In this document: positions 10,419 through 39,073 of the stretch, piece after piece
Layout: the number at the start of each line of letters is the position of its first letter
Position numbering within the stretch: position 1 is the stretch's first letter
Source of the DNA: an uncultured Verrucomicrobia subdivision 3 bacterium
GTDB lineage: Bacteria > Verrucomicrobiota > Verrucomicrobiia > Limisphaerales > UBA11358
DNA length: 64,000 nucleotides
NCBI GenBank assembly: GCA_903872345.1
Contig: CAIQKM010000073.1
Span: 1 to 64,000, forward strand
Direction of reading: 5' to 3'
Made by a program: the position numbers and the translations under genes
Notes under the pieces: generated by a model
Told to the model about the DNA's origin: nothing
Database searches by the model: none
Seen by the model: the letters and a program-made list of their open reading frames with translations, nothing else

Positions 10419-10503
10419 GGTAGGTTACCCAAGTGGCCAACGGGGGCAGACTGTAAATCTGCTGGCTATGCCTTCGATGGTTCGAATCCATCACCTACCA
10501 CCA
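10419..10503 (+). tRNA. tRNA-Tyr (anticodon GTA)
   Basis: A full cloverleaf with a long variable arm is visible. The acceptor GGTAGGT (10419-10425) pairs with ACCTACC (10493-10499), followed by A and an encoded CCA. The anticodon stem is GCAGA/TCTGC around loop CTGTAAA, anticodon GTA at 10453-10455. The T loop is TTCGAAT. The class II shape and the GTA anticodon identify tRNA-Tyr. Its 3' end served as the integration site of the island to the right. Confidence 0.97.
10474..10503 (+). other. attL: 30-bp core at the tRNA-Tyr 3' end
   Basis: These 30 bp, from TCGATGGTTCGAATCC to the encoded CCA, are repeated without mismatch at 39044-39073. The sequence diverges immediately on both sides. It covers the T arm and 3' acceptor strand, a common tyrosine-recombinase crossover site. 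Confidence 0.93.
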
Positions 10504-10561
10504 CTTTCCCTAGTGGCTTATTATAAGCCTCTTAAAACAAATCCACGCCTAAGGTTTGTTG

Positions 10562-10586
10562 TTCGCATAACAGTTTGGCATAACAA
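10562..10586 (+). promoter_or_regulatory. Candidate integrase arm-type sites, left end
   Basis: TTCGCATAACA (10562-10572) and TTTGGCATAACAA (10574-10586) lie about 60-80 bp inside attL. The same two words occur at 38948-38973 beside attR. Position and repetition suggest arm-type binding sites for the integrase; this is inference. Confidence 0.55.
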
Positions 10587-10725
10587 TTTTACCGTTATCC
10601 AAACCTGTTTTTAGCCGTTCAATGCAATTCTCGCTTCAAACCAAGGGCGCGAACACTGTGGGTTTCAAAACCAGAGCTTATCTCAGTACTGCCAATTTTC
10701 GGTTTGTATCGGGCCGTCGCTCAAT

Positions 10726-11560
10726 TTAGTGCTGGGCCGGACTATTTGATATCAAACGATCAAACAATTCAGGTTTGTGAAAAGTGATTTCAGCAACCCC
10801 GGGACAGTTGGTGGCTGCTTGAAGGTCTTTCAAGGCAGCCCGGTCACCCAATAAGCCTACGCGTAGGCTCATCAACAAATAACGACCGAACAAGTCCCGT
10901 CTGGCTTCATTGCTCCTGCCGCAGGCTAATTCTGCGGCCCAAGTCGTCGGGTTTTCAGCGTCAACATGCACGGCTTGCTTTACCTTCAAGGTAAACGCCG
11001 GGCCGGGAAGATCCTTGAATATCTGCCTAGCGTTCCCGTTGGCATTCCAGGCTGAAGGTTCCGCTCTGAGAACAAAACAAGGGATTTTCAATGCTTTGGC
11101 TGCATCGGCGCCTTGTTGACCACGGCCAACAGGATCAAGACCGACCCAGCAATTGATGTTCGTGTTACCTGCGGATGCGAGCAAGGTGGCCAAACCACCG
11201 GCTGAAAAACCGACCAGAGCGAGTTGATCCGAAGGTTTAGGTTGTGCGAACAGCTTTCCCTTTTTCATCTCCATCACCAGCTCGGCCAGGGCGCGTCCAT
11301 TTTGAGCATGATCAGACAAAGTGGGCAGATCTGGGGCCATGGCGATAAACCATCCTTGGCCAGCATTTTGCCCCAACCTTCCATGGTCTTGCGATTGCGG
11401 GTGAATCCATGAGCCAACACCACTACCGGCGCTGAATGGGATGATGCAGGTAAATAAAAATCTACGGCAACAGTTTTACCTGTGAGTACCAGCTTTTCAG
11501 TTTGGATGGTGATGTCGGTTGACGGTGTCTGGCTCACGACCGGTGTCAGTAAGGAACCTG
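10726..11560 (-). pseudogene. Alpha/beta hydrolase, 5'-truncated and frameshifted
   Basis: Two minus-strand frames together make one secreted alpha/beta hydrolase. The first (about 11555-11340) carries SGSLLTPVVS, the end of a signal peptide, and PVVVLAHGFTRNRKTMEGW. The second (about 11376-10726) carries ALVGFSAGGLATLLAS with the nucleophile serine, and a late VHVDAENPT near the expected histidine. They are in different frames and overlap near 11340-11376, so one frameshift separates them. An in-frame TAG lies just upstream of the signal-peptide remnant, and the normal N-terminus is missing. The gene is therefore probably dead. It is the first cargo beside attL. Confidence 0.7.
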
Positions 11561-11907
11561 AGGACTACAAGGGCAATCTTGTTCACATCGTCGGTCGCGA
11601 ACGCATTCTTGCGCTATTGGGCATCGAGGAAGAACCAACCGATTTGCCACCTACCGCACAGCCACCTCCATCACCAATCCCCAATACTCCCGTCAAACCG
11701 CCTGTCACGCCAGCGTGCGCTGCACTGATACCTGCCAACAGTGACAGGCTTTCGGTGAGTTCTTCGAAACTCGCTCCGATCATCGGCTATAATTCCACTG
11801 TCGACTTTGAAATCAAACTGAACTAAAAGTACACATACATAAAGCTTTTACAACCTGTCCACGTAATCGGGCCATTGCCAATTCGCAATTGAACGACCAA
11901 GAAAGAC
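11561..11907. other. Junction region with unidentified coding debris
   Basis: No intact gene is recognised. On the plus strand a frame reads PEDYKGNLVHIVGRERILAL, then GIEEEPTDLPP (about 11555-11650) and becomes low-complexity proline-rich. It has no start of its own and may be a fragment of a decayed gene joined to the broken hydrolase. The rest up to 11907 is probably the promoter region of the histidine kinase. Confidence 0.3.
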
Positions 11908-14076
11908 ATGCTATTGACATCAAAATTGCGACTTCAGAATGCGGTACACCAAGGCTCGGGGTTGGCTTGGCGGCGGCTCGGCAGACTGGTGTGCCTGTGT
12001 TTCGCCTTTTGTTTGGCGGTTGATGCGATGGCGGTTGCCCAGCCGGCTAGTCCCTTGCCAATACTTAAATCAGTCGAGGAAGTCCGCCAGCTTACCACGG
12101 CGCAAGCAGCGCTGAGTTATCCGGTTCATCTGTGCTGTGTGGTGACTTGTTGTGATTCAATCTCATCAGGTTTTTTTGTTCAGGACTCTCAAAAAGGAAT
12201 TTTTGTCCGGTCTTCGGGGCGGCGGCAAACCTGGCATGCCGGGCAGAAAATTGATTTGGAAGGGAAGACTGAACCAGGAGATTTTGCGGCCATAATTAAA
12301 GCCGTAAAAATTACCGTATTGGGGGAGAGTGAAATACCGTCACCGAAATTGGTCTCGTTCGATCAACTGGCCACGGGAACGGAAGACGCGCTGTGGATTG
12401 AAACGCGCGGTGTCGTGCGGTCAACCGAGCATCTTGGCACCGGATTCGTTGTTCTTGATTTGGTATTTGGCGGTGTGCGGGTGCAGGCGATCGGCCCGAT
12501 GATAACGAATGACTTGTCGTCGTTGGTTGAATGTACGGTGCGGCTGCAGGGGGTGGCGGGCGTGCTCTTCAATCGCAAGCGGCAGATGATCGCCCCGATC
12601 GTGTATTTCAATTCACTTACCAATATCACAGTTGAGTCTGAAATTACCATAGACCCTTTCGCGGTGCCGGAAAAGTCCGTGCGACAGCTTTTCGAGTATG
12701 ACTCATTAGGTTCGGCCGGACATCGAGTGAAGATCCAAGGCGTGGTCATCGGCCAGTTGCCTGGCGAGGCGATTTTTATCCGGGACCAGCAAGACGGTTT
12801 GCTGGTGGAAACCAAGGATCGGACATTGGTTCGGCCCGGTGACGTTCTGGAAACCCTTGGTTTTCCGGCGACGGGGCATTTCAATCCAATCCTGCAGGAT
12901 GCAGTCTTCAGGAAAACCGGAACCGGCGCTGTTCCAAGTCCCGTCCCGTCAACCGTGCGCGTGCTTTTGGATGGGGCTTTGGACGCAGATTTGGTGACGG
13001 TGGAAGCTGATTTGCAAGTTGATTGGAATGGCCGGGACGAGCCGTTTATGAAACTTCAAGAGAGTGGAATCATGTTTAATGCCGCCATCGCTACGGCGCA
13101 TGAGGCTTCGCCGTGGCCCACGCTGCGTGCGGGCAGTCGGCTGAAGCTCACCGGAATTTGTCAGGTGCAGGAAGTGGTTGCGGAAGGAGCCTGGCTTCAC
13201 CCGACTTTCATCCGTCTGCTGCTGCGTTCCCCGCAGGATATCGTCGTGTTGCATCAGCCTTCCTGGTGGACGGCTGTACGACTGCTCTGGCTGTTGGGCG
13301 GGGTGATGACCTTCGCCTTGATCGCCTCGGTTTGGGGGATTTTGCTCAAGCGGCGGATGCTTGACCAGGCGGAGGTTATCCGTACCCAGCTAAAGCGTGA
13401 AGGCGTACTCAATGAGCGCGCCCGGATTGCGCGTGAGTTTCACGACACACTGGAACAGGAACTCGCCGGGATGTCGCTTCAAATGGACATGATTGCCGCC
13501 CAGACAGTCAAGCATCCGGTTGCGGAGCGGATCGGAGTAGCCCAGCGGTTGTTGCGCCGCAGCCAGGAGGAAGCCCACCGCTCGGTTTGGGATTTGCGTT
13601 GCGGGGCGCTTGAACGGGGTGGGCTGGCAGTTGCGCTTGAGGAAACTGCCGAGCAAACCGCCAGGCGAGCCGGCATTGAGATTTGCCTAAATGCCCCCAG
13701 TCAATCCCGTCGGCTGCCGGTGTTATTGGAGCACCATTTGTTGCGCATTAGCCAGGAAGCCATCACCAATGCCATCCGGCATGGCCGTGCAAAAATAATC
13801 CAACTTGATTTGTCGTTTGATGCGGACGAAATTTGCCTACGGATAAAAGATGACGGCTGCGGGTTTGTTTCGGAAGAGCTGGCGAAGGAAATGGCCGGCC
13901 ATTTTGGACTGCTGGGCATGAAAGAGCGGGCGGAAAAAATCGGGGGTTCATTTTGCGTTGTCAGTCAGCCCGGATTGGGAACCCTAGTGACAGTGAAAGC
14001 GCCGGTGCCTGGGACCAATGATAACCTGGCAGCTTCTGAAAGCACCATGCCTATCGAGACCACAAATTTATCGTAA
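11908..14076 (+). CDS. NarX-type sensor histidine kinase with a large exported sensor region
   Basis: This 722-residue membrane kinase has a signal anchor near residues 25-45, a long exported region (about 45-450) of beta-rich repeats, and a transmembrane helix at about 452-474 (LLWLLGGVMTFALIASVWGI). The cytoplasmic kinase is HisKA_3: ARIAREFHDTLEQELAGMSL carries the phosphoacceptor His. A HATPase_c domain follows, with SQEAITNAIRHGRA (N box), IKDDGCGF (G1) and HFGLLGMKERAEKIGGSF (G2). The exported region resembles the OB-like sensor parts common in verrucomicrobial kinases, but I cannot name its ligand. The response regulator follows at 42 bp. Position next to glycan-degradation genes suggests it senses a sugar or polymer product. 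Confidence 0.9.
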   Translation: MLLTSKLRLQNAVHQGSGLAWRRLGRLVCLCFAFCLAVDAMAVAQPASPLPILKSVEEVRQLTTAQAALSYPVHLCCVVTCCDSISSGFFVQDSQKGIFVRSSGRRQTWHAGQKIDLEGKTEPGDFAAIIKAVKITVLGESEIPSPKLVSFDQLATGTEDALWIETRGVVRSTEHLGTGFVVLDLVFGGVRVQAIGPMITNDLSSLVECTVRLQGVAGVLFNRKRQMIAPIVYFNSLTNITVESEITIDPFAVPEKSVRQLFEYDSLGSAGHRVKIQGVVIGQLPGEAIFIRDQQDGLLVETKDRTLVRPGDVLETLGFPATGHFNPILQDAVFRKTGTGAVPSPVPSTVRVLLDGALDADLVTVEADLQVDWNGRDEPFMKLQESGIMFNAAIATAHEASPWPTLRAGSRLKLTGICQVQEVVAEGAWLHPTFIRLLLRSPQDIVVLHQPSWWTAVRLLWLLGGVMTFALIASVWGILLKRRMLDQAEVIRTQLKREGVLNERARIAREFHDTLEQELAGMSLQMDMIAAQTVKHPVAERIGVAQRLLRRSQEEAHRSVWDLRCGALERGGLAVALEETAEQTARRAGIEICLNAPSQSRRLPVLLEHHLLRISQEAITNAIRHGRAKIIQLDLSFDADEICLRIKDDGCGFVSEELAKEMAGHFGLLGMKERAEKIGGSFCVVSQPGLGTLVTVKAPVPGTNDNLAASESTMPIETTNLS

Positions 14077-14118
14077 CCGCCATCAATTTGGAATAATTAC
14101 ATCACCTATTTGCACTCA

Positions 14119-14751
14119 ATGAAGACTCCTGTCAAAATCCGCCTGCTGGTTGTGGACGATCACTTTACAGTCCGCATGGGGCTGACCGCCTCAATTAATA
14201 TGGAATCGGACATGGAGGTGGTCGGTGAGGCCAGCAACTTTCAACAGACCATCAAAGTCTATCGGCAATGCCACCCGGATGTGGTGCTGTTGGATTATCG
14301 CCTCCCTGGGGTTGGCGGCATCGGGATATTGGAAGCGCTCATGGCCGAATTTCCGAGCACTCGCGTGATTATCTTTTCGAGCTATTCCGGCGATGAGAAT
14401 ATTCATCGTGCCATTAAGGCTGGCGCCCGCGCCTATTTACTCAAGTCCGGATCACGGGCCGAACTTCTAAAGGCCATTCGGGCCGTGCATTCAGGTGAAC
14501 GTTACTTCCCACAAGAGGTGGCAACGGAACTGGCGCAGCGGCTGGACGGGGCGCAACTCAGCGCCCGCGAGATCAATGTGCTTCAACTCGTGGCGCGCGG
14601 GCAAACCAACAAGGAAATTGGCGTGGCTTTGCACATTGCTGAAATAACCGTCAAACAGCATGTCGGCCATATACTCGCCAAACTGGGCGCCAGCGACCGG
14701 ACCCAGGCCGCCACGCTTGCGCTTCGGCGGGGAATCATCTCGCTCGAATAA
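14119..14751 (+). CDS. NarL/LuxR-type response regulator
   Basis: From ATG 14119 the protein has 210 residues. The receiver domain has the acidic pair in LLVVDDHFTV, the phosphorylated Asp in PDVVLLDYRLPGVGG, and the conserved Lys in AYLLKSGS. The C-terminal LuxR HTH is LSAREINVLQLVARGQTNKE, then IAEITVKQHVGHILAKLG. A TTG three codons upstream could be an alternative start. It forms a two-component pair with the preceding kinase and is the only dedicated transcription factor inside the island, so it is the best candidate to switch on the cargo. Confidence 0.93.
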   Translation: MKTPVKIRLLVVDDHFTVRMGLTASINMESDMEVVGEASNFQQTIKVYRQCHPDVVLLDYRLPGVGGIGILEALMAEFPSTRVIIFSSYSGDENIHRAIKAGARAYLLKSGSRAELLKAIRAVHSGERYFPQEVATELAQRLDGAQLSAREINVLQLVARGQTNKEIGVALHIAEITVKQHVGHILAKLGASDRTQAATLALRRGIISLE

Positions 14752-15127: not shown

Positions 15128-15904
15128 ATGAAAATAAAACGTTGTTCTTTCTTTCCTGCAAAGGCGTTTACGCTTATCGAACTTTTGGTGGTCATCGCGA
15201 TCATTGCGATTTTGGCCGCCCTGCTGTTACCCGCGCTGGCTTCCGCCAAGCGGAAGGCGACGATGGCCGGGTGCATGTCCAATTTCAAGCAGGTTGGTGT
15301 CGCCCTAACCATGTATATTGACGACAGCAGTGATTGGTTGCCGCCCGGTCAGGGATCGTTGACGGGGCTGTGGACATCTCAGGCGTTCGGCTATGATGTG
15401 AGCACCACCGGTTATTTGATAAATTACATAGCGAAGTATCTGGCTTATCCTGATCCGAGTGCGACGACACAGTTGGCTAAAGTCATGGTTTGTCCTGGCT
15501 TTGTCTCAAACGTAAGCACCACCAACCTAAGTGGTGTTGCCAGCTATAACTTGGACGGACATTTTAGCGATGCGGCGTACCCCGCCATCGGTGGCCCGGC
15601 GACTGGCATCGGCTTTATGCCATTTGGTTATGCCGTTGCGGGCCAACCCCCATTTGGCTTGCCGGTTAGCGTTGGCACAACTTCCCACAAAATTACTGAA
15701 GTGGGGGCAAAGGCGCCCCTAACGTCGGTCTGGTATATGTGTGACGTGGATTTTCAGGGAACAGCCCAAGCCGGCTGGCCGGTGAGGGCGGGTGTCACCA
15801 TACCGGCCAAACCGTTGCACGGTTCGGTTCGCAACTATCTTTATTTTGACGGGCATGTGCATTCTCAAAAAGTTCCGGCAAACGGCGCTTTCTACTATTA
15901 CTGA
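15128..15904 (+). CDS. Type II secretion-like pseudopilin with H-X9-DG end
   Basis: The 258-residue protein carries the prepilin leader and N-terminal helix [20 protein letters not shown], cleaved after the residue before Phe by a prepilin peptidase. It has [15 protein letters not shown] and the C-terminal [20 protein letters not shown], the verrucomicrobial/planctomycetal pseudopilin ending. Such proteins are numerous in these phyla and are thought to be exported surface components; the exact role is not known. It precedes two giant secreted proteins on the same strand. Confidence 0.88.
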
Positions 15905-15996: not shown

Positions 15997-18900
15997 ATGC
16001 AACGTAAAATTCATATTCAAGCAACCTTACTTGCGCTACTGGGCATTTTGTGTTTTGGCCTGGCGAGCCAGACGCAGGCGCAAAACTACACCACCGTCGC
16101 GGCCGGCGGCAATTTCAGCGCCGCCGGCACCTGGAATGGCTCGCAGCCACCAGTGGGTGGCGGCACGGATGTGACATTGATGCTTACCAATGGGTCTGGG
16201 AATCTCACCCTGGACTGGGCGGGGGCATTCATGTTGAACAAAATGACCAATCTGCTTTATTCCGGCAATGCCAACCTTTATGCCTCCAGTGTAACCCCTG
16301 CGCCATATTATTTGTTCACCAATACTGCGGCTGGCGTCCCGCCAACGATTAACTGCCCTGGAGATGCCATTCAATTTAACCTGCCCGTCGTTCTGGCAGC
16401 GAATTTGACTATTAATGCCAGCCAACTATTTAATGGCCATGTCATATTTCAAACTACCGCCGCCATTATTTCGGATACCACCCCATCTTCCGTCACCATT
16501 CATACCGTTGACTCCCCCCCATCCTATGTCGGCTCCTACGTTGACTTTCGCGGTGCGAACACCTACCGGGGTGCAACCATTATCAGCGCTGGCGTTTTAA
16601 AGTTGAATCACAGTGGTTCATATGTTGGCAGCGTCAACAATTCGACGAATATTTCCATCGCGGCGGGCGCAACTTTGGATGTTTCTCCTGGCACCAGCTA
16701 CACCTATTTGTTGAGCACGAACAACGTGTTGACGGCCAGCGGAACCGCTACAGCTGCCAAGATTCAGTGCGCCCCAGGGGGTGGCTTCAACTGTGGCGCG
16801 CAGCCCATTGTCTTGAACTATGATGGATCGCACCCGGCACTAGCCATCACCAATTCGGCAGCCGGCGTGACGACGCTCACCTTGAGCAATAACACGTTCA
16901 CCATCAACGGCACGGTCTTGGCCAATGGCGATTACTCGATTATCACCAATTACAGTGGTTCTATTAGCGTCCTTGGCTCCAGTTTCACGGTCAACGGCAC
17001 GGCCATCGGCACGGGCAAAGTGGGAACGTTGAGTGTTATCACAGCAGGCAGCACCAGTTACTTGGATTTGCACATTGCTGTCGCAAGCGCGCCAATTGGT
17101 CCTGTCAGTGCCCCCAATTCGACTGTGACCGCTAGCCCGAACGTTCTGATTGCGGACAATGTCTCGCTTTCCACGGTTACGGTGACACTTCGGGACGCCA
17201 CCAATAACCTGGTAAACGCCGGAACCAACGTCACCTGGTCGGTGAGCGGCTCGGGCAACACGGTCGTCCCGGCGGCTTCCGGCGTTACCATTGCCGGTGG
17301 CACTTGCACTTTTACCGTCCAGTCGTCCGTGGTTGCAACCAAGCTGGTCACGGTCACTGCGGGTGGAACTACGATCACCACTTCATTGCCGATTACTTTC
17401 ACCGGACCAGCCAGTGCCACTAATTCCACCGTGACCGTCAGTCCGGCCAGTGTGCCGGCGAATAACAGCACCGCTTCTACAGTCACCGTGACGCTCGCCG
17501 ACACCAACAATGTCGCCCTTGGGTCAGGCATCCCCGTGACGTGGACGGTAAGCGGTTCTGGCAATACGGTTTCCCCGGCGGCTTCCGGCGTTACGAGTGT
17601 GGGTGGCGTCTGTATGTTCACCGTCAGGTCGTCGGTGGCGGAAGTCAAAACGGTTGTAGTCAACACGGGCACGATCAGTTTGACCAATCAAATCAGCTTT
17701 TACACCCCGCCGGTTACCTTGAGCTGGGACGCGCTGCTTACCCACACTAACTCGATTGGTAGTGGCGTCTGGGATACGAATTCCCTTACGGGAGCCAACT
17801 GGGGAAATGGCACTGGAGACGTTGCGTGGCCGAATAACGGTGACACCGCCTTGTTTGGCACCGGCGTCAATGCCGGCCCCGATTATTTTACCAATCTAGT
17901 AATCGCGCTGAACACTCCGATCAAGGTGGGGCCCATGACGTTCAACAGTTTTAATGGAGCGTCTGAAGCGATTTACCAAATTGCTGGAACCAATTCTTTG
18001 ACAGTGGTCGGCACGCCGACCATAGCAGTTACTTCTGATGCCATGATTTCCTGTCCGCTGGCGGGCACGGGTTTCACGAAGACAGGAAACGGCAACCTGA
18101 TTCTCAACGGTACGAACACCACTTATGGCGGCGGTATCACTCTCAACGGCAGTTCGTTGGAGGTGGATGCCGACAATGCCTTGGGCAAAGGTTTGTTTAC
18201 TTATAGCGGGGGCAACAACTTGTTGACCAACGCCGTTAGCGCCACGCTGACTAATCCCACATTCATGTCTGGCGGCAATGGTGAAACGTTCAAAGTTGGA
18301 GTGCAGGCAGGAAGCACGCTGACCCTCGGCGGTGTCATCACGAATGCCAACCCCGCCGGCGGAAGCGTTACCAACAACATGGACGTGACAGGTGGCGGCA
18401 CGCTGGTGGTTTCCAATGTTGCTTATTGCGGCAATCTGTACTTGGATACTGGCACCGCGCTGGTCATGGGTGGCGCGTTCACCAACAGTGGTTTTACTAC
18501 CATCAACGGCAACTTGAGCGTGCCCGGCACGTATGTTCACAGCACCAATGGATCCAATCCCGGATTGCTAATCAATTCCGGTGCCAGTCTGGATGTGCCC
18601 ACTGGTGGCACATTTGATTCGGCACCGACCGCCTATATTTCCGTCTATGGCGGATTATCGGTGGAGGGAACCATGAATTTTAATGGTTCGAGCTTTGCGG
18701 TGGGCTATCCCGGCTCCGTCAGTTTTGCTGGTGTTTTCAATAATAATACGACCAACGAATTCCGGGTTGCGCCCAACACTACTGCCAGCGTGGCGGGAGC
18801 TTACAACTCTCCGGCCGCCGGGTTGAATGTCAATGGGTATGGTACCTTGAACTTTTCGGGCACGACGACCAACCTGACGTACTTGGAAATGAATAATGGT

Positions 18901-23394: not shown

Positions 23395-23423
23395 ATCGAA
23401 TGATGCGAACGCTTTGCGATGAT

Positions 23424-29071: not shown

Positions 29072-29805
29072 AGAACCTTTTTCTAATTGTGTTCGGACTC
29101 TCCCTTTCTGGGCTGTCGCTAGCGGCCAACTGGGATACCCAGACTATTGATTCCCGCGTCCAGACGTTGCTCGGACAAATGACGTTGGAGGAAAAGGCCG
29201 GCCAACTTTCCCAATATGCCATGGAGACCAAGATCTTGGCCGAGATGGTGAAATCCGAGCCATTTGAGCTGGCTACGAAAGGCAAGGTCGGCTCGATTCT
29301 ATACTTGAAGGGTGCAAAGGCGTGCAATGAATTCCAACGGCAGGTGCCGGACAAATCTCGCCTGGAACTACTGATTCTTTTCGGTCTGGACGTTATTCAT
29401 GGCTACCGCACGGTCTATCCAATACCCCTGGGGCTAGCCTCATCATGGGATCCAGAATTGGCTGCAAGCTGTGCTCGCATGGCCGGAGTGGAATGCAGTT
29501 CGGAGGGGATCCGATGGACTTTTTCGCCAATGGTGGACATTGCCCGGGATGACCGCTGGGGAAGAATCACAGAGGGAAATGGCGAAGACCCTTTCCTTGG
29601 AGGTATCCTGGCGGCAGCCTGGGTGCGCGGTAATCAGGGAACGAATCTCGCTGATCCCTCTATTACCGTGATACTGAAATCCAGCCGATTGGGCAGATTC
29701 CGGCGGAATTTGCCGACCTTAGGTCCATTCGGCTTATCCGCAAAAGTGGAGTGGTCTCAACTTCTTCAGGGCAAACGGCAACGAGTCGGTAATGCTTTAG
29801 TATGA
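29068..29805 (+). pseudogene. Truncated GH3 beta-glucosidase
   Basis: The first about 200 residues are a clear BglX-like GH3 N-terminus: QTLLGQMTLEEKAGQLSQYA, LFGLDVIHGYRTVYPIPLG and MVDIARDDRWGRITEGNGED. Similarity stops near GNQGTNLADP (about 29660). The remaining residues, to 29805, are unlike GH3. The frame ends at 245 residues against about 750 for the family, so the catalytic Asp region and the whole second domain are missing. The break looks like a deletion or recombination junction. An intact GH3 gene starts 270 bp further on. Confidence 0.85.
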
Positions 29806-30074
29806 TTTCAACGCAATACTAACGCTTTGCTGACTTTGGGTTGAATGGGCAGATAATAATTTGAATCAAATTGAGCCAAAAATGAAATGCAGCAAATCCG
29901 ATATAAAATCCAATTGCCGGCACCTTATCCGACGAGATGATAAAAAAATTTAAGAATTAAAAATAGCTGATTGGACTTGCCCGATTGGCTTAAAAAATGT
30001 TGTAACGCTGTAATAAGCTAGCGGATTGACCCTAGCCTGCAAAAAAACGTCAGAGTTTTAACACGATATATTTG

Positions 30075-32348
30075 ATGAAATGGCCCGTGAAAAAAAAGTG
30101 GCAATTGCTTGCAAGCTTTTGTCTTTTACTTGCCGCCTTAAAATTTCCCGTTGGCGGGATGGCCGCCGACCTTGCTGTCGCCAGTGGTGGTGATGAATCA
30201 TTGGCTGTAGCACGGTCAGCTCCTGTGCCTGCAGACGCGACGTTATTGGGGGCAAGGTACCTGGATTCGCAGGCTCCTTTGGAGGAGCGAGTGGCTGATT
30301 TGTTTTCCCGTCTGCACCCCGAAGAAAAGGTGGCGCTCATCCATGGTTGCGGCGACATGGGCTATGGAAGCATTCCGCGCATTGGCTTGCCGAAAGTCCT
30401 GATGACGGACGGGCCACAGGGTGTTCGTTTGGACGCAGGCACGGCAACCGCCTTCCCGTGCGGATTGGCGATGGCCGCAACATGGAATCCATCCATGCTT
30501 AACCAAGCCGGGGTCGTTATGAGTGAGGAATGTCGTGCACTCAATCGCCGGATCTTTCTGGCCCCGGCAGTGAATATCATGCGCTCACCTCTGGGGGGGC
30601 GAAACTTTGAGTATATGGGTGAAGATCCCTACCTTGCAGGGAAGTTGGCCGCCGCTTTGATTCGTGGAGTTCAATCACAAGGTATTGCGGCCTGTGTCAA
30701 ACATTGGAATCTGAATGAGGAGGAACATTGGCGGCATACTATCAACGTCGAGTGTGACGAACGTGCCTTGCGTGAGATTTACAGCCCGGCGTTTGAGGCG
30801 GCTGTCCGCGAAGGGAATGTCTGGGCTCTGATGCCCGCCTATAACCGCTTTTCAGGCGATTTTTGTACGGCATCAAAACATCTGAACTTGGACATGCTTG
30901 AGCACGAATACGGCTTTGACGGCGCGCTGATTTCCGATTGGAATGCATGGCATGATGATAAGCTGGCGATTGAGGGAGGCTGCACAATTCAGATGCCTTC
31001 AGTGCAAGATGCCGTCCGAGATGCCCGCATCGCGGCATCCATTGCCACCGGAGAAATTTCTTCTATGGCTTTTGATGAAGCGGTTCGGCGTAACTTGCGG
31101 CTGTTGTTTCGTATTGGAGCCTTTGATGAATGGCCAGGAGGTTCGGCTAACACGCCCGCGCACCAGAAAATCTCCCGTCTGGCGGCGACTGAATCCATTG
31201 TGCTTTTGAAAAACAGCAGGAATTTGCTGCCGCTGGACGGCAATAAAGTAAAACGAATTGCCGTTATCGGCCCGAACGCCGACCAGTATCAAACGATGGC
31301 CGACGGCTCAAAACTGGTTACGCGAGGCGGTTCTGGAGCCACGCGTCCACCCTATGAAATCACCGCGCTAGCGGCTCTGAAAGCAAGGTTTGGAGAAAAA
31401 ATCATCTATGCTCCGGGAATATCCTTTGAAAAACATCTTCCAACTGTCGACCCGGTGGCTGAAGCCATCGCTGCTGCGAAAAGTGCGGATGTGGTGATAT
31501 TTTTCGCCGGCACGGACCATGAATATGACCGCGAGTTTCTGGGCTGGGGCGAAATGAAAGGTGCCGATAAACCCGATCTTGAACTGATTGGGCCACAGGC
31601 CGACTTGATTCAAAAGATCACGGCGGCGAATTCAAAAACCATCGTCATACTGGTGAATGGATCGCCGGTTTCTGTTGAGCAATGGCAGAACCAGGTTCCC
31701 GCAATTTTAGAAGCATGGTATGGCGGTATGGAAGCCGGGAATGCCATGACTGATATTTTGTTTGGCGACGTCAATCCGTCTGGGAAGTTGCCTTGCACGT
31801 TCGGAAAAAAACTCGACGACTGGCTTTGTCACAAGTTGGGACCGGAATCGTTTCCAGGTACGGGAGACAATGGGGTTGTAAAATATCTCGACAGCATTTG
31901 GGTTGGCTACCGTCATTTTGACGAGGATGGCATCGAACCCCGCTACCCCTTCGGTTACGGGCTCAGCTATACGACATTCAAATACGGCAAGCCAGCGCTT
32001 TCTGCGGCCGACATGTCCAGCGACAAGACCCTGACCGTTTCCATACCCGTCACCAATACCGGCAAGCGCGCAGGCGCAGAAGTTGTGGAATTGTATATCC
32101 ACGAAGACAAACCTGTATTAACACGGCCCTCCCAGGAACTCAAAGGCTTCGCCAAGCTTTTTCTCCAGCCTGGTGAAACGAAAATTGCATCATTTACAAT
32201 TCAATGGCGTGATCTCTCATTCTGGGATGAAATTGGTCGGAGCTGGAAAGCCACGCCGGGAAAATTTGAGGCGCGTATTGGCTCTTCTTCGCGCGACATT
32301 CGCGCCGTGGCGGAATTTAAATTGGCAACCGATCTGGCCTCGAAATAG
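30075..32348 (+). CDS. Secreted GH3 beta-glucosidase/beta-xylosidase
   Basis: From ATG 30075 the protein has 757 residues with a signal peptide ending near PVGGMAADL. Domain order is the GH3 N-terminal barrel (about 80-320), C-terminal alpha/beta sandwich (about 370-610) and a fibronectin III-like end (about 650-745). The nucleophile Asp is in GFDGALISDWNAWHDD. KHWNLNEEEHWRHT stands at the KHF-type site. The FnIII part carries RPSQELKGFAKLFLQPGE. GH3 enzymes release glucose or xylose from oligosaccharide ends. This one probably completes degradation started by the upstream GH55-like protein. It is preceded by 266 bp of AT-rich non-coding DNA that may contain its own promoter. Confidence 0.93.
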   Translation: MKWPVKKKWQLLASFCLLLAALKFPVGGMAADLAVASGGDESLAVARSAPVPADATLLGARYLDSQAPLEERVADLFSRLHPEEKVALIHGCGDMGYGSIPRIGLPKVLMTDGPQGVRLDAGTATAFPCGLAMAATWNPSMLNQAGVVMSEECRALNRRIFLAPAVNIMRSPLGGRNFEYMGEDPYLAGKLAAALIRGVQSQGIAACVKHWNLNEEEHWRHTINVECDERALREIYSPAFEAAVREGNVWALMPAYNRFSGDFCTASKHLNLDMLEHEYGFDGALISDWNAWHDDKLAIEGGCTIQMPSVQDAVRDARIAASIATGEISSMAFDEAVRRNLRLLFRIGAFDEWPGGSANTPAHQKISRLAATESIVLLKNSRNLLPLDGNKVKRIAVIGPNADQYQTMADGSKLVTRGGSGATRPPYEITALAALKARFGEKIIYAPGISFEKHLPTVDPVAEAIAAAKSADVVIFFAGTDHEYDREFLGWGEMKGADKPDLELIGPQADLIQKITAANSKTIVILVNGSPVSVEQWQNQVPAILEAWYGGMEAGNAMTDILFGDVNPSGKLPCTFGKKLDDWLCHKLGPESFPGTGDNGVVKYLDSIWVGYRHFDEDGIEPRYPFGYGLSYTTFKYGKPALSAADMSSDKTLTVSIPVTNTGKRAGAEVVELYIHEDKPVLTRPSQELKGFAKLFLQPGETKIASFTIQWRDLSFWDEIGRSWKATPGKFEARIGSSSRDIRAVAEFKLATDLASK

Positions 32349-32533: not shown

Positions 32534-34174
32534 ATGAAAAACCAGATCGTTTATACCGCTGCATTCATTTTGTTCTTGTTGGGTTCAGATATTGTTTGCG
32601 CTGAATCACAAATGAGACAATCTGGATTGACTCCTTCCAGCCCAACGGTGATTTCACTGCTGCCAGGAGAAAAAGTCTGGTCCGGAGTCATCAAGGACGG
32701 CGAGAACCTGCCTTATCTCACTGGTTCACACTATGATTTTTACGCCAATAACCGGGATAATCAGATCCAACCTTTGCTGCTTGGAAGCCAGGGCCTGTGG
32801 GTTTGGAGCGATGATCCATATGCATTCGAGGTATCAACCGACAAGATCATCATCACCAACGCCAAGGGAGAAGTAAAAAGTGGCCGGGCAGGCAACAGCT
32901 TGGCGGCCGCCCGCCAATTCGTTTCAGCCAAATACTTCCTGCCATCGGGTGCAATGCCCGATGAATTGCTTTTTGCCAAGCCACAATACAACACATGGAT
33001 TGAACTGAACCTCCACCAGAATCAAAAGGATGTTTTGAAATATGCGCATGCCATCATCGCCAACGGTTTTTCGCCCGGGGTGTTGATGATTGATGATACC
33101 TGGCAGGAGGACTACGGCGTGTGGAACTTCCATCCGGGAAAATTTCCAAATCCCAAGCAAATGATGGACGAACTGCACAGCATGGGTTTCAAAGTAATGC
33201 TTTGGATTTGTCCGTTTGTGAGCGCCGACCAGTCCCAATTGGTGCACGAGCTTTTAAAGGATAAATGTTTTTTGATGCAGAAGGCAAATGCGGAGACCAC
33301 TTGGGCCACCGCAACCGACCCGGCGATCATCAAGTGGTGGAATGGATATTCAGCCCTGCTAGATTTCAGCAACGCCAAGGCGGTTCATTGGTTTAACAAA
33401 CAAATGGATAGGCTGGTGCAAGATTATGGCGTGGACGGTTTCAAACTGGATGCCGGGGATATGCAATTTTACCCACCTGATGCTTTGAGTGCGGGTTCCG
33501 TATCGCCCAATCGCCAATGTGAATTGTACGCGCAATTTGGCCTGCGCTTCCCGCTCAACGAATATCGTGCTTGCTGGAAAATGGCCGGGCAGCCGTTGGC
33601 CCAGCGCCTGCACGATAAAAACCACAGTTGGGAAGATGTGCAAAAACTCATCCCGCAAATGCTTACGGAAGGATTGGCCGGTTATACCTTCTCTTGTCCT
33701 GACATGATCGGCGGAGGCAATTGGGGAAGTTTCGCCGATCAAAAGGAAATTAATCAGGATTTGGTCGTCCGTTCGGCCCAGATCCATACGTTGATGCCCA
33801 TGATGCAGTTTTCCGTTGCCCCATGGCGCATTTTGGATGCGGAACATCTAAAGGCAATCAAGCAGGCCGTGAAAATCCGCGAGCAAATGACGCCGGAGAT
33901 TCTTGAACTGGCGCATCAATCGGGCAAAACCGGCGAGCCAATTGTGCGCTCATTGGAATATGAGTTCCCCCATCAAGGCTTTGAACAGATCAAGGATGAG
34001 TTTATGCTTGGAGACGATATATTGGTTGCTCCGCTTGACAGACAAGGCCATAGCCGTCAGGTGATACTGCCGAAGGGGGAATGGATTAGCGACGATGGAA
34101 GGACGTTGAATGGCGGTTCCTTTATCTTGAATGTACCACTAGACCGCATCCCTTTCTTCAAGATAAAGAGGTGA
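32534..34174 (+). CDS. Secreted GH31-family glycosidase
   Basis: The 546-residue protein has a signal peptide (IVYTAAFILFLLGSDIVCAE). The barrel shows GVLMIDDTWQEDYGVWNF, GFKVMLWICPFVS, and VDGFKLDAGDMQFYP, where the Asp of KLDAGD is the expected nucleophile. SCPDMIGGGNWGSF carries the region of the acid/base. The whole resembles alpha-xylosidase/alpha-glucosidase enzymes of the shorter, YihQ-like kind. It is shorter at the N-terminus than classic GH31 enzymes. A small hairpin (TCAGCCTG/CAGGCTGA, 32415-32434) lies upstream in the gap after GH3. It is the last glycosidase of the cargo. Confidence 0.9.
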   Translation: MKNQIVYTAAFILFLLGSDIVCAESQMRQSGLTPSSPTVISLLPGEKVWSGVIKDGENLPYLTGSHYDFYANNRDNQIQPLLLGSQGLWVWSDDPYAFEVSTDKIIITNAKGEVKSGRAGNSLAAARQFVSAKYFLPSGAMPDELLFAKPQYNTWIELNLHQNQKDVLKYAHAIIANGFSPGVLMIDDTWQEDYGVWNFHPGKFPNPKQMMDELHSMGFKVMLWICPFVSADQSQLVHELLKDKCFLMQKANAETTWATATDPAIIKWWNGYSALLDFSNAKAVHWFNKQMDRLVQDYGVDGFKLDAGDMQFYPPDALSAGSVSPNRQCELYAQFGLRFPLNEYRACWKMAGQPLAQRLHDKNHSWEDVQKLIPQMLTEGLAGYTFSCPDMIGGGNWGSFADQKEINQDLVVRSAQIHTLMPMMQFSVAPWRILDAEHLKAIKQAVKIREQMTPEILELAHQSGKTGEPIVRSLEYEFPHQGFEQIKDEFMLGDDILVAPLDRQGHSRQVILPKGEWISDDGRTLNGGSFILNVPLDRIPFFKIKR

Positions 34175-34268: not shown

Positions 34269-35264
34269 GTCTGCTACCAAAACGTCGAGCAGCCAAAGCA
34301 CTCCCCGGGCAGCCTCATCTCCGCCGAGTTACGGGGGGAGGCGTTTCGTGAAGCTAAAGAACTGGAGACGGCCGGGTTGGTGGATCTCAAGACGGTTCGT
34401 TACCGTCCTTACCAAATTGAACGGATTGTGATTCCGTTCGCGGCGGAACCGCGCCTACGGGAACTATTCGCTGGCAAACTCCCGGCTCCTCCCGATCCGC
34501 AATTTGATTTTGCCTCCGTTAAATGGGCTCCACAGCTTACCTTCCTTACCAGCGAATCCGTTGCGGTAGCTCCGGACGATCTGCTCAAGCTGAATGAATT
34601 CCTCCTGCAAAAAGGGCGTACGAAATCCGTTGTTCCGATCAAGGAGCGGTCGCTCGAAATCTTCGGTGATGAGAAACGCCTGGATGCCTTGGTCTCCACC
34701 TCGCTTTTTCGGACGGGCCGTCTCAATTGGCTCAAGGACTTAAGATGCGAAATTATCGGTGAACCCCTTGGATGGAAACTGGGGCCAGTGGAAGCTATTG
34801 CCTACCCTATCCTCGTCATCGAGAATGCAGCAACTTGGCATTCCTACTGCCGTTACAATGCCGAGCGTAAACTATTCAGCGCCATAGTGTATGGCTGCGG
34901 CAATCGATTCATGGACAGCGCCACCTATTTGACGGATATTTTCCAGTCCGTCGGCGGTGCCCGCCGTACTTTTTATTTTGGTGATCTTGATCCACAGGGA
35001 TTGCGTATTCCCCAAACCGCATCAAAGTTTTTGCAAACCGCCGGCCTACCCGCCGTTGAGCCACATCTCTGGAGCTACCGCCAATTACTGATGCTCGGTG
35101 CCGGTCATCGGCAGCCCTGCGACGACGAGCCGCCATCACCCGCACTCTGCGATTGGCTGGGCGAATGTGCGGAGCCCGCCCGCCAGTTGTTCGCTGCAAA
35201 CCAACGTCTTGCCCAGGAACGAATAGGCTGGGAATTTCTCCAAACTCTGACCAGATTGGATTAA
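34269..35264 (+). pseudogene. 5'-truncated jetD-like (Wadjet, DUF2220) gene
   Basis: An open frame runs from just after a TGA (34266) to TAA at 35264; it has no good start and begins abruptly. The C-terminal JetD pattern is clear: VPIKERSLEIFGDEKRLDAL, LVIENAATWHSY and FYFGDLDPQGLRIP, where the Glu and DLD residues form the TOPRIM-like nuclease site. JetD cuts plasmid DNA after loading by the JetABC condensin. No jetA, jetB or jetC is present in the window and the normal N-terminus is incomplete, so this is probably an inactive remnant. The active-site residues are still intact. Confidence 0.72.
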
Positions 35265-35273
35265 AGTGCCAAG

Positions 35274-35400
35274 ATGGAAACTTTTCTCACTGCCTTTGAT
35301 CCTTCCGACCTTCCCGGAACCAGCATTGACCCGCTCGGCTTTGATATGGGGTAGTTTTTCTAGTTAATATAATGTTCCCGGTCTGACCAACATCGCTTTG
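35274..35400 (+). pseudogene. Decayed start of an unidentified gene after jetD
   Basis: ATG 35274 opens 26 codons reading METFLTAFDPSDLPGTSIDP and then LGFDMG before a TAG at 35352. A continuation-like peptide VPGLTNIA appears in another frame at 35374-35397. This looks like the N-terminus of a conserved protein disrupted by a stop and a frameshift. Family not recognised. It follows jetD by 9 bp, so it may have been its operon partner. From 35400 to 35622 no gene is supported. Confidence 0.4.
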
Positions 35401-35622
35401 CGGTCGAGCTGCATGACTACATCTGTGCATCGATGCTCGAGCGCCATCATCACTACCGAAGGCCCATGATGGAGTTGAGTTTTCATCGTTTGCGTCAGGC
35501 CAACCGATCGGATGTCCAAGTGGTGTCGTTGCTCCAGAATCGGATTGGTGCTAGAACGGTACCAAGCTTCAATTGCCCAAAGTTGGGCAGGAGGAAGCGA
35601 ACAACAACCAGCAGTCAAAAAT

Positions 35623-37179
35623 ATGAGCCAATCAAGTAAAGGTTCCGCACAATGGTCCAAAGCGGATGAAGCGCTGTTAAAAAATCACAAGGAAGACGAT
35701 CTTCTCAAGGAAAAGGATGACACCAATTGGCCGCCTCTCATGGCTGGCGAAAGAATTGGTGACATGATTGACCGGTACAAGATTTTGGAAGAGATCGGCG
35801 AAGGTGGATTTGGAATGGTATATCGGGTCGAGCAAGAAGGGCCGCTCCAACTGCAATTTGCCCTTAAAGTCATCAAGCCCGGGATGGACACGCGACAGAT
35901 TTTGAAGCGATTTGAAGCGGAACGGAAAACGCTGGCAAAACTCAACCACACAAACATCGCAAAGGTCGTGGATGCGGGGGCTACCCACAATGGGCGGCCA
36001 TATTTTGTGATGGAGTGGGTTAGGGGGATAAAGATTGACGAGTATGCCAACTCCAAAAAACTCACTTTTGAAAAAAGACTCAGATTGTTTGCAAAAGTTT
36101 GCAGAGCGATTCAGCATGCGCATGAAAAGCAGGTCGTGCACCGAGACATAAAGCCCTCCAACTTGCTGGTCATAGAGGAGGACGGTGAAGAAGTGCCAAA
36201 AGTAATCGACTTTGGAATAGCAAAAGCCATTGAAGGAGAGCATTCAGCTGGACATACGGTTTTCACCAGTCCGGGGCAATTAATTGGCACGCCAGCGTTC
36301 ATGAGCCCGGAACAGGCTCAACCTGGCAAGGTTTCTATTGATCACCGCACAGATATATATTCACTAGGTGTTTTGTTGCAGGAATTAATCACTGGTCATC
36401 TGCCATTTGATTTTGTCGGCAAAAGTTCACATGAACAAATCCAAGAAATCATTGAAAAAAAGCCAGCTAGAGCATCGGAATTCTACAGGGCACTTCAAGC
36501 CAGTGAACAATTAAAGATTGCTTATAATTGCCAATCTACACCGGATGAGCTCAATAACTTCATTGTAAAGAATTTGGATCAAATGATTGAAAGGTGTTTG
36601 AAGAAAAAGCGCGAAGAACGATATTCGACGGTTAAAGAATTGTCGGATGCGATCAATTCTATTCTGGAGTCGCTTAAAATCCAAAACAATCATGAAGCGA
36701 ATCAGTTTGAAAACAGTATAAAACAAAATCGCGCCGTGCCCCCAAAATTATTGTTAGAAGGAGTCTCAAATGCTAGGAGACGGGTTAAAATGCCCAATAA
36801 ATTCCTATTTGTCATATTTCACGGGCATTTGGAAAATTTGGTTCTAAAACGACCTGCTAAGGTAATAAAACTTATTTTAATCGCGATGAGGATCTGCGTG
36901 ATTGTGTGTGGAATCATGACGCTGGTTAATTTTTTTTCAATGAGTGAAAAAAATATTCTAACCACAATAATACTTTTCTTGCTTACATTGTTTTTGGGAT
37001 CCGCTCAATTCATTTTTACCATAAAACACAAAATATCCGGTAATCATCTAAAAGAGCAGGCGTTTCAAAAAAGCTTTCTTCGCTCTGCATTATTTGCTGT
37101 TTTGGGTATGTCTATTATGTCGCTATCTGTCCTTTTATTGGGACTGCTTATTGACGCTAGAGATATGCCCGGTAGATGA
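35623..37179 (+). CDS. Membrane-anchored Ser/Thr protein kinase
   Basis: From ATG 35623 the protein has 518 residues. A full Hanks-type kinase lies at about 45-345. It shows the glycine loop EEIGEGGFGMVYRV, LALKVIK-type lysine (FALKVIKPGMD), catalytic VVHRDIKPSNLL, metal-binding VIDFGIAKA and GTPAFMSPEQAQPGKVSIDH. The C-terminal part has three to four hydrophobic helices (about 415-440, 447-465, 490-515) and lacks the TPR or WD40 repeats that often follow such kinases in Verrucomicrobiota and Planctomycetota. Its base composition is clearly more AT-rich than the chromosomal flanks, in line with foreign origin. Signal and targets unknown. Confidence 0.88.
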   Translation: MSQSSKGSAQWSKADEALLKNHKEDDLLKEKDDTNWPPLMAGERIGDMIDRYKILEEIGEGGFGMVYRVEQEGPLQLQFALKVIKPGMDTRQILKRFEAERKTLAKLNHTNIAKVVDAGATHNGRPYFVMEWVRGIKIDEYANSKKLTFEKRLRLFAKVCRAIQHAHEKQVVHRDIKPSNLLVIEEDGEEVPKVIDFGIAKAIEGEHSAGHTVFTSPGQLIGTPAFMSPEQAQPGKVSIDHRTDIYSLGVLLQELITGHLPFDFVGKSSHEQIQEIIEKKPARASEFYRALQASEQLKIAYNCQSTPDELNNFIVKNLDQMIERCLKKKREERYSTVKELSDAINSILESLKIQNNHEANQFENSIKQNRAVPPKLLLEGVSNARRRVKMPNKFLFVIFHGHLENLVLKRPAKVIKLILIAMRICVIVCGIMTLVNFFSMSEKNILTTIILFLLTLFLGSAQFIFTIKHKISGNHLKEQAFQKSFLRSALFAVLGMSIMSLSVLLLGLLIDARDMPGR

Positions 37180-37207
37180 TTAAGCGTATTTGGTCTCGTG
37201 TCTGGTT

Positions 37208-37528
37208 TTAAGTCGTCTTGTAAAATACATTTGCCGGTTTACCACTCATAGCCAACCCACCGATCAGGGTATAGAGCTGCCCCTCTGGATTGCGGATGGT
37301 AAATACCCCGGAAAACTGCTGGAGAGTAAATCGTGCGCCCACAGGTCAGGCCCATTTTGCAAAGGCACCAGCGACCTGCCGCCAGTTGGTAATTTCCCAT
37401 TTAACGCCACCCGCCATCGAAACCCGGCGCTGTTGAGCGGCAGCTTTAGACGTGCCACGGCTAGCCTTCACCACGGAACGGGCTCGGGCTTCCATTTGCT
37501 TGACGGTACTGTGACGGCGTGTTTTCAC
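37208..37528 (-). pseudogene. Small gene with an in-frame TGA next to the integrase
   Basis: On the minus strand one frame runs 107 codons from ATG 37528 to TAA 37208 and is interrupted only by TGA at 37346-37348. The first part is basic (KQMEARARSVVKASRG, then TSKAAAQQRRVSMAGG); the second reads ARFTLQQFSGVFTIRNPEGQ and LYTLIGGLAMSGKPANVFY. The sensible sequence on both sides of the TGA suggests a recent nonsense mutation. Family not recognised. It lies 99 bp past the integrase stop on the same strand, as accessory genes of integrative elements often do. Confidence 0.45.
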
Positions 37529-37627
37529 TGCTGACTGTGTATAGCCCGATTTGCGGTCCGAATCAAATGAATTGTCGAACTTGGGTGCGCGGGGCGGGGC
37601 CTTTACTGGCTCCCAAGGACTGACTAA

Positions 37628-38944
37628 TTATTTTGTCACATCCGGCAGTTTGCTGATCGAATCCTTGGTGTCGTCAGCACTGAGGTGTGTATAACCCCGG
37701 GAAACCACTTCGCTGTCATGGCCAATAATCATCTGGGCCAAGGCGTTGCTGGCACCAGACGATTTGAGCCAGGTTGTGAGCGTATGGCGGAACGAATGGA
37801 AGGTGAGTTCGCTTACCTTGCGCTTGCCTTTCCGCCCTTGGCCATCTTCCGCAGCTTTAGCTTTAGGCCGTTCCACTACCAGGCCGGCCGGAGCAAGAAT
37901 TTCATCATAGAACTTGGTGCTGATGGTGCCCGTATGCTTTTCCGCCATGGCCGCAAAATTGGGGAACAGGTATGCCTTGGGACTATCAGCTGAGGGAAGT
38001 TCCAGAATGTGAGCGAGCAGGGGAGTAGCCATGCTCAGGCAAAGCCGCTTGCCAGTTTTCTGTGTCACAAAGGAGATTGTTTTACTCTCCAGATCGACTT
38101 GTTGCCACGTTAGCTGGGCGATGTCTCCCAGCCGTTGGCCAGTATAGACGGCGGTCAGAACCAGGCCGCTCCATTCGCCACCCACTTCATTGCACTTTGC
38201 CAAAACTCTTTTGACCTCTTCCAGAGTAAAGGCCCGGCGGGTATTTTCCCCACGGTATTTTAGTATGGAAACTTTCGTTGCCACGTTGGTATTGAGCAGG
38301 TCCTGCTTTTGAGCGGAATAGAGGCAAGCCCTGACAACCTTCAAATCCATGTTGGCTGATGCAGTGGAAAGAATTTTGGCTGTTGTATCGCGAAAACGGA
38401 TAATGTCTTCCGCTCGCAAAGCGGCCAGATCTTTGTCGGCTTTGGTGCCCAGTGATTCTAGGAATCTGCGCAAAGATGTTTCATATCGGTCGTGGGTACG
38501 GGGTGCTGCTTCCAGGCCCTTGGCATCCAGCCAGGTCTTGCACCACTGACGAATTGTGGCGTTCGGGATGTTTTCCCCAACAGTTGAAGCCACATGCCTG
38601 ACCGTTTTACTTACCAGCCCAGCCAGGAGCTCTTTTGAGAAGTTTGGCAGGCTGACAAGCTGCGCTGCTTCTTCAAAGAAATTTTTCAGGATTTCGCGGT
38701 TCAGGCCACCACTGAAATGAGATTCGGCAACGTCGGCGATGGTGGCATCAATCAGCTGGCGGGCTCGATCGGGGGTGAGGCTTTGCTGAGTGGCTAGTTC
38801 GGAGGCCTTGACCCAACCTGCGCATATCTTTCGCGCATGGCTTTTGTCTGCTGTCCCAGTGCTCTTGAAATGTCGCTTGCCGTCAGGCGTGGTGAACGCG
38901 CAAAACCAGTGCGGCTTATTCGGCTGTTTGTGAAGGCTTGGCAT
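37628..38944 (-). CDS. Tyrosine recombinase (island integrase)
   Basis: From the ATG at 38944 the protein has 438 residues. The frame extends to 39004, but MPSLHKQPNKPHWFCAFTTP matches the usual N-terminus of this integrase type. A core-binding domain spans about 130-230. The catalytic domain carries the first Arg in VYTGQRLGDIAQL, the HxxR in FHSFRHTLTTW, the second His in IIGHDSEVVSRGYTH and the nucleophile Tyr in the same motif. All catalytic residues are present, so it may be functional. Position next to attR, transcribed inward, is typical of the enzyme that inserts and excises its island. Its start region overlaps the right-hand GCATAAC repeats, which could allow self-regulation. Confidence 0.93.
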   Translation of the reverse strand: MPSLHKQPNKPHWFCAFTTPDGKRHFKSTGTADKSHARKICAGWVKASELATQQSLTPDRARQLIDATIADVAESHFSGGLNREILKNFFEEAAQLVSLPNFSKELLAGLVSKTVRHVASTVGENIPNATIRQWCKTWLDAKGLEAAPRTHDRYETSLRRFLESLGTKADKDLAALRAEDIIRFRDTTAKILSTASANMDLKVVRACLYSAQKQDLLNTNVATKVSILKYRGENTRRAFTLEEVKRVLAKCNEVGGEWSGLVLTAVYTGQRLGDIAQLTWQQVDLESKTISFVTQKTGKRLCLSMATPLLAHILELPSADSPKAYLFPNFAAMAEKHTGTISTKFYDEILAPAGLVVERPKAKAAEDGQGRKGKRKVSELTFHSFRHTLTTWLKSSGASNALAQMIIGHDSEVVSRGYTHLSADDTKDSISKLPDVTK

Positions 38945-38973
38945 AATTTGGCATAACAGATTCGCATAACAAA
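38938..38973. promoter_or_regulatory. Candidate integrase arm-type sites, right end
   Basis: Three related words stand in tandem: CTTGGCATAAT, TTTGGCATAACA (38948-38959) and TTCGCATAACAAA (38961-38973). The last two are the same as at 10562-10586 near attL. They overlap the integrase start codon. The role as arm sites is inferred. Confidence 0.55.
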
Positions 38974-39043
38974 CAAGCTTGTCAACGCCGTTTAAACTAT
39001 TCAAAAACCCAATAAAAGTGCATATTTATAACGTTATGGCGAA

Positions 39044-39073
39044 TCGATGGTTCGAATCCATCACCTACCACCA
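39044..39073 (+). other. attR: duplicate of the tRNA-Tyr 3' end
   Basis: These 30 bp equal 10474-10503 without mismatch. There is no tRNA body before it, so it is only the tRNA tail left by integration. It is directly followed by what looks like the tRNA's original terminator. Confidence 0.93.

Follow-up and report, generated by a model that had tools for sequence, protein, structure and literature searches.

The window analysed here is a 64,000-nucleotide stretch of contig CAIQKM010000073.1 from an uncultured Limisphaerales bacterium of the phylum Verrucomicrobiota. It carries an intact tRNA-Tyr(gta) gene at 10419-10503, recognized by both ARAGORN and Rfam, whose 3' end is the left border of a putative genomic island. 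The last 30 bases of the gene, TCGATGGTTCGAATCCATCACCTACCACCA, occur as exact copies at 10474-10503 and 39044-39073, so that, without the second copy, the island measures 28,570 bp (10474-39043). Between these borders lie a two-component system, two giant genes, a series of genes for polysaccharide-degrading and related enzymes and, beside the right copy, a tyrosine integrase gene (Table 1). Herein we describe the borders of the island, a paired sequence motif that recurs at the ends of related elements, and the cargo.

The borders and the integrase

A sequence-only reading of this DNA had proposed an island integrated at tRNA-Tyr, bounded by the 30-bp repeat and accompanied by a tyrosine integrase with all its catalytic residues, and both proposals were borne out. 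No further copy of the repeat was found in the window at up to three mismatches, and none arose in 100 shuffles; a division of the island by internal att copies was rejected for lack of any such copy at that threshold. The repeat can be extended to 34 bases at 97% identity. The integrase gene sits just inside the right copy, and its product contains the PF00589 domain together with the motifs TGQR, QKTGK, HSFRH, GHDSE and RGYTHL, which we take to be the R-K-HxxR-H-Y catalytic set. Its start is likely the ATG at 38944 rather than the TTG at 39004, because the resulting length of 438 aa matches that of many of its closest homologues. Those relatives of the integrase that carry names belong to the Verrucomicrobiota, Limisphaerales among them. 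A search of viral_contigs with the integrase and with the GH55-fold protein of the island gave no confirmed relative. The small conserved open reading frame (ORF) behind the integrase may, speculatively, encode a directionality factor.

Base composition, which the earlier reading had proposed to compare, sets the island apart. The guanine-plus-cytosine (GC) content is 51.9% in the island, 58.7% in the left flank, 54.8% in 39074-41671 and 60.9% in 41672-64000. This contrast is real but moderate, because values elsewhere in the same genome, taken from eight stretches of which two overlap, range from 54.2 to 59.8% and some 2-kb windows of the island reach 0.56.

Judged by the left flank, G008 is the closest relative found; its DNA is 90.7% identical over 7410-9270 and 88.8% identical over 9680-10507, and the PhoH and RsfS proteins are 97% and 94% identical, respectively. 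In G008, tRNA-Tyr is followed directly by sequence that matches 39044-39122 of the window at 90%; this match is made up of the 30-nt repeat itself and, beyond it, 41 identical nucleotides out of 49 (84%). A hairpin similar to the one in that segment also follows tRNA-Tyr in G012, G017, G030 and G062, as judged by eye from the alignment. In the window, 28.5 kb thus separates tRNA-Tyr from its usual downstream sequence. As far as the alignment goes, the left junction of G008 is as an insertion predicts, and this island is missing there. In the loci read, no relative carried the same block without the repeat, and no gene order was conserved across the two ends; the sequence-only reading had named either finding as one that would speak against it.

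A further observation in G008 concerns the segment behind the integrase. At 14905-15233 of locus L062, beside tRNA-Tyr, a relic of an integrase C-terminus is found together with a 258-bp block that is 95% identical to window 37310-37567, in an order that differs from that of the window.

Table 1. Features of the island and its borders in the window
Position	Strand	Feature	Basis or remark
10419..10503	+	tRNA-Tyr(gta), target gene, putatively restored by the left end of the island	ARAGORN; Rfam RF00005 at 10419-10500
10474..10503	+	attL core, 30-bp repeat equal to tRNA 3' end	Repeat search
10565..10584	+	Left arm-type pair GCATAACAGTTTGGCATAAC	61 nt past CCA end
10726..11376	-	ORF, alpha/beta-hydrolase fragment by eye	No Pfam match
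11908..14076	+	Sensor histidine kinase (HisKA_3, HATPase_c)	Pfam
14110..14751	+	Response regulator, LuxR/GerE output domain	Pfam
15128..15904	+	Prepilin-type N-methylation motif protein	Pfam
15997..19677	+	1226-aa repeat protein (Big_1, PATR), signal-peptide-like start by eye	Pfam
19822..23394	+	1190-aa GH55-fold protein, probable beta-1,3-glucanase, signal-peptide-like start by eye	PF12708; predicted model
23286..24743	+	GDSL/SGNH hydrolase; listed start overlaps GH55 gene	Pfam
24767..25873	+	Putative esterase PF00756 (CE1-like)	Pfam
25819..26697	+	Alpha/beta hydrolase PF07859	Pfam
26716..27135	+	GNAT acetyltransferase	Pfam
27152..29071	+	639-aa protein, GH35/GH42-like barrel (about residues 50-350)	Weak sequence matches; model; folds
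29068..29805	+	Truncated GH3, N-terminal part, 245 aa	Pfam; reading frames
30072..32348	+	Full-length GH3 (N, C and Fn3-like domains)	Pfam
32534..34174	+	GH31	Pfam; solved relatives
34377..35264	+	JetD-like protein (PADLOC JetD3), first 87 profile positions unmatched	Pfam; PADLOC
35512..37179	+	Ser/Thr protein kinase, best match PD-T4-6	Pfam; PADLOC
37310..37567	-	Block with small basic ORF behind integrase	95% identical to relic beside G008 tRNA-Tyr
37628..38944	-	Tyrosine integrase, 438 aa	PF00589; catalytic motifs; homologue lengths
38951..38970	+	Right arm-type pair GCATAACAGATTCGCATAAC	Just upstream of likely integrase start, 79 nt before GTTC of repeat
39044..39073	+	attR core, displaced 30-bp tRNA 3' end	Repeat search
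39074..39122	+	Displaced tRNA-Tyr downstream sequence with terminator-like hairpin	Directly behind tRNA-Tyr in G008
39140..39158	+	Decayed arm-like sequence, possible trace of an older element (suggestive)	Alignment in register with G008/G012 arm sites
40606-40916		NHL-repeat gene right of island, internal repeats at 123-bp spacing	Repeat search

Paired GCATAAC sites in the genus and the order

Comparison of the island ends with those of relatives revealed GCATAAC as a motif repeated close to the tRNA. Exact copies of the pattern GCATAAC-N6-GCATAAC stand in the window only at 10565 and 38951, one per island end. Near-matches inside the island at 15614 (one mismatch) and 25367 (two mismatches) are probably due to chance, shuffles giving a mean of 0.33 and at most two.

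Across the 49 genomes of the genus, the pattern was matched 22 times, in 14 genomes, and its reversed control once. Under a strict rule, a tRNA 3' end accompanies 20 of these 22 sites, 15 of attL type at 61-64 nt and five of attR type at 79-80 nt, and a relaxed rule brings the number to 21; the remaining site (L193) is cut by a contig end, and a tRNA-Leu end can be seen by eye in the corresponding position. Of 2000 random positions in the loci fetched, 12 passed the strict rule and 135 the relaxed rule. The tRNAs that ARAGORN named beside the genus sites are Leu and Tyr, and an integrase match lies 22-34 nt from four of the five attR-type sites, the fifth (L173) being at a contig end. From their pattern and placement, the paired sites are best read as the integrase arm sites of a recurrent family of tRNA-targeting elements.

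The pattern also extends beyond the genus. An even draw of 293 genomes from the order, with G000 among its 37 members of the genus, contained 39 matches in 28 genomes, and nine of the reversed control. All 23 loci from outside the genus were read. With the relaxed rule, a tRNA end stands beside 19 of them: 11 of attL type at 60-64 nt, three at 78-81 nt and two at 39-40 nt, and three of attR type at 80-92 nt; 14 of the 23 qualify under the strict rule. Two more have an integrase match only, and two have neither by script, one of which (L239) shows a tRNA-like remnant by eye, the other being L252. The tRNAs concerned are Ser, Leu, Tyr, Glu, Gly and Val. A scan of named genomes with the integrase returned a single locus, in a Limisphaerales metagenome-assembled genome (58% identical), where two copies of GCATAAC are spaced by four bases, not six, beside a different tRNA end.

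In two other elements, the left and the right end, each with arm sites, lie on a single contig. The first, on contig C108 of G060, is about 21 kb long at tRNA-Leu and carries a type III methyltransferase, a PDC-S68 defence candidate, a ResIII-domain protein and a Toprim/DUF3631 protein; the second, on contig C118 of G217 (L251), outside the genus, is about 10 kb long at tRNA-Leu(taa) and has an integrase 37% identical to that of the window. Behind the left end in G017 come genes for type I restriction-modification. The other arm-bearing ends have mixed or unassigned neighbours, some of them probably chromosomal. These statements on sister cargo come from selected large ORFs that were scanned. 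As a separate observation, the DUF3631/Toprim protein of the G060 element (L195, 16932-19586) has no counterpart among the ORFs of the window island that were scanned.

Not every insertion at tRNA-Tyr belongs here. In G032 (L064), G026 (L065) and G060 (L069), the tRNA-Tyr repeats measure 58-59 nt and reach back to the anticodon region; these accompany other integrases, only 25-31% identical to that of the window, and were left out of the family. Thus, by sequence comparison, tRNA-Tyr serves as a target for at least two integrase groups.

Taken together, these data incline us to place the island in an as yet undescribed, order-wide family of integrative elements of Limisphaerales-type Verrucomicrobiota, an assignment that we hold to be somewhat more probable than not. 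Such a family would have one arm code (GCATAAC-N6-GCATAAC, mostly some 62 nt from the tRNA end at one side of the element and some 80 nt at the other), a leaning towards tRNAs with a long variable arm (Leu, Ser and Tyr), stacking of elements at one tRNA, and free exchange of cargo, with restriction-modification genes in some hosts and a glucan-degradation locus here.

Cargo of the island

Pfam was applied to 17 ORFs of the island, the smaller ones being set aside. The two-component system, a giant repeat protein (here with Big_1 and PATR matches) and the SGNH, CE1-like, GH3 and GH31 enzymes listed in the sequence-only reading were all recognized, and its list is extended here by a second GH3 in the form of a 245-aa fragment and by the JetD-like gene and Ser/Thr kinase beside the integrase, which it had omitted. 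Its GH55-like call is supported by a predicted fold. Residues 357-1100 of the 1190-aa protein were modelled with a mean predicted local distance difference test (pLDDT) score of 89, and the top PDB folds (5m5z, 3eqn and 8jhh) are all GH55 or beta-1,3-glucanase entries; the model thus supports a GH55 double beta-helix fold. This protein was matched in 18 of the 49 genomes of the genus (up to 14 candidates scored per genome), and none of the matches listed for the other 17 matching genomes, drawn from the other 48 of the genus, covers residues 460-1100. Close homologues of the cargo exist in metagenomes, at 90% identity for the GH55 protein and 85% for the 639-aa protein.

For the 639-aa protein, no assignment to a GH family was possible, and the model of its C-terminal half is poor; relatives are present in 21 of 196 genomes of the order (E <=1e-3, its own included), the next best at 70% and most others below 40%. 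The full-length GH3 has mostly beta-glucosidases as its nearest solved sequences. The closest solved relative of the GH31 is a GH31 alpha-galactosidase of nearly equal length, matching over residues 39-543 of 546, and GH31 relatives occur in seven of the 196 genomes (E <=1e-20, its own included). Elsewhere in the same genome, Big_1-like, GH3 (31%) and GH31 (71%) segments are arranged on contig C156 (L221, 162-5733) as they are in the island, with order and strand alike, and part of the island's cargo type is therefore known to the lineage. Also within the cargo, the two giant genes, which are neighbours, share 300 bp at 86% identity in their 5' parts (16049-16348 and 19898-20197), a likeness that we read as a recent duplication or conversion.

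Taken with the GH55 fold, these relationships make it plausible that the cargo would serve extracellular breakdown of beta-1,3-glucan and attached alpha-galactosides, presumably under control of the island's own two-component system. No transporter and no SusC/SusD were recognized among the 17 ORFs, and the island does not classify as a Bacteroidota-type polysaccharide utilization locus (PUL). Of the earlier proposal of a mobile, complete glycan-use locus, the integrase-type island with polysaccharide-degrading and exported-protein cargo is supported and the word complete is not, one GH3 also being truncated. Among the same ORFs, Pfam recognized neither relaxase nor type IV secretion genes, as an integrative and conjugative element would have, nor the capsid, terminase or tail genes of a prophage (PHROGs was not scanned). 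A search limited to the island recognized no JetA, JetB or JetC, so that the JetD-like gene is not part of a full Wadjet set here; together with the PD-T4-6-like kinase, this gene (34377-37179 for the pair) could possibly be what remains of a defence module.

Interpretation and comparison with known systems

In the established lambda-type scheme, a core is flanked on either side by arm sites to which a tyrosine integrase binds. The window has such a core, paired sites at a fixed spacing and an integrase, which makes integration and excision by this integrase the best reading. We put the probability that the block is a tyrosine-integrase genomic island at tRNA-Tyr, with an integrase/arm-site recombination mechanism and glucan-degrading cargo, at roughly 0.9. 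The repeats, the arm pattern with its geometry, the integrase motifs and the left junction compared with G008 can be read from the DNA itself; from them we infer how the arm sites and recombination would work. The integrase would bind the paired GCATAAC sites at both ends, bring these together with the 30-bp core at the 3' end of tRNA-Tyr, and recombine a circular form of the island into attB. The island's own tRNA end would thereby restore tRNA-Tyr, and the chromosomal end with its terminator would be displaced to 39044. The integrase probably represses its own gene, since the right arm pair lies just upstream of its start. Any transfer that still takes place would depend on a helper, because no conjugation or virion gene was recognized among the ORFs scanned.

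Several points weigh against this interpretation or parts of it. In the empty-site comparison proposed in the sequence-only reading, no relative was found that has a clean empty site with both flanks syntenic; the left junction of G008 lacks this island, but the right-hand gene order is not shared with G008, whose RapA gene (window 41672-44536) adjoins tRNA-Gly. The G008 match beyond the repeat spans just 49 nt, and next to its tRNA-Tyr G008 has variant arm sites and the relic of an integrase. The 2-kb windows of the island at a GC content of 0.56 are about level with 7-10 kb on the left. Outside the genus, 23 matches to the arm pattern compare with eight of the reversed control, only an approximately threefold enrichment, and the L252 site has neither a tRNA end nor an integrase. 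The GH55 assignment is that of a predicted fold with moderate template-modelling scores (0.59-0.67) and root-mean-square deviations of 5.7-9.5, and a PDB sequence search with this protein gave nothing. Lastly, the truncated GH3 and the partnerless JetD point to decay.

Two further accounts are compatible with an island origin. In the first, to which we give slightly less than an even chance, an older element of the same family occupied tRNA-Tyr, the present island was inserted between the tRNA and that element, and 39074-41671 is the older remnant. On the right side of attR, the arm sites of G008 and G012 can be aligned in register with the window sequence, although the arm-like trace is short and decayed; the GC content of 54.8% in this segment would also suit a remnant, and on contig C110 of G060 a partial tRNA-Tyr end lies between an integrase and an arm pair 63 nt off, as if serving two elements. 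On the other hand, in the tRNA-Tyr loci fetched, the right-of-attR matches that start at the repeat end stop by 39157. A genus-wide DNA search of 39074-41671, with six candidates per genome scored, gives weak evidence either way.

In the second, which we regard as tentative and somewhat improbable, the island is now fixed, in that the integration module has been kept, movement of the block as a whole has ceased, and some cargo was perhaps accreted by ordinary recombination. The truncated GH3 and the partnerless JetD would fit, as would the Big_1-like/GH3/GH31 order elsewhere in the same genome and the integrase being the only mobility gene among the ORFs scanned. A fixed block is less easily reconciled with cores identical over 30 bp, two exact arm pairs, a full-length integrase with its catalytic motifs, and a GC content that is lower over most of the block. 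A reading without any mobile element, in which the repeated tRNA end arose by chance or by gene duplication, is very improbable: tRNA fragments without islands are conceivable, but nothing found here favours this reading, and the integrase, the arm sites with a fixed spacing common to other genomes, and the displaced tRNA downstream sequence beyond the right repeat speak against it.

For the preferred reading, a tRNA-Tyr island moved by its integrase, the practical consequences are twofold. The 20-bp signature marks element ends with few false matches in the genus, so that islands, targets and cargo could be listed directly from contigs, and it defines a compact attP for recombination tests. 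Verrucomicrobiota are known degraders of polysaccharides, and the spread of their glycan genes is little documented in the literature searched. The earlier remark that mobile transfer of such a locus is little described in this phylum fits that literature, but it needs qualifying by a precedent, namely fucoidan genes on Verrucomicrobiota megaplasmids (PMC8857213). Among the open-licence papers listed on Verrucomicrobiota islands and arm-type sites, titles and abstract starts yielded no description of the element family, which is weak evidence that none exists.

Glycan genes on mobile DNA are thus known from those megaplasmids, as from PULs on gut elements (PMC6907783). The gut-element PULs contain SusC/SusD, whereas none was recognized in the window island, and the megaplasmids are extrachromosomal, whereas the island is chromosomal, at a tRNA. 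The overlap of an att region with the integrase promoter region recalls the autoregulated intS module of KplE1 (PMC2951348), although the directionality factor of KplE1, itself a prophage, is known and none has been identified for the island. Tycheposons, described first in Prochlorococcus, are likewise bordered by tRNAs and carry a tyrosine recombinase along with metabolic cargo related to the niche (PMC10872708, PMC11389934), a likeness drawn from their description only. Islander catalogues tRNA-integrated genomic islands (PMC4383910), and those islands, as they are outlined there, share with ours an intact tRNA at one end, a displaced fragment at the other, a tyrosine integrase and cargo, but differ in host group, cargo and the GCATAAC-N6-GCATAAC signature. 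The tRNA island itself is therefore of a known kind; an arm code shared across a bacterial order may be the new part.

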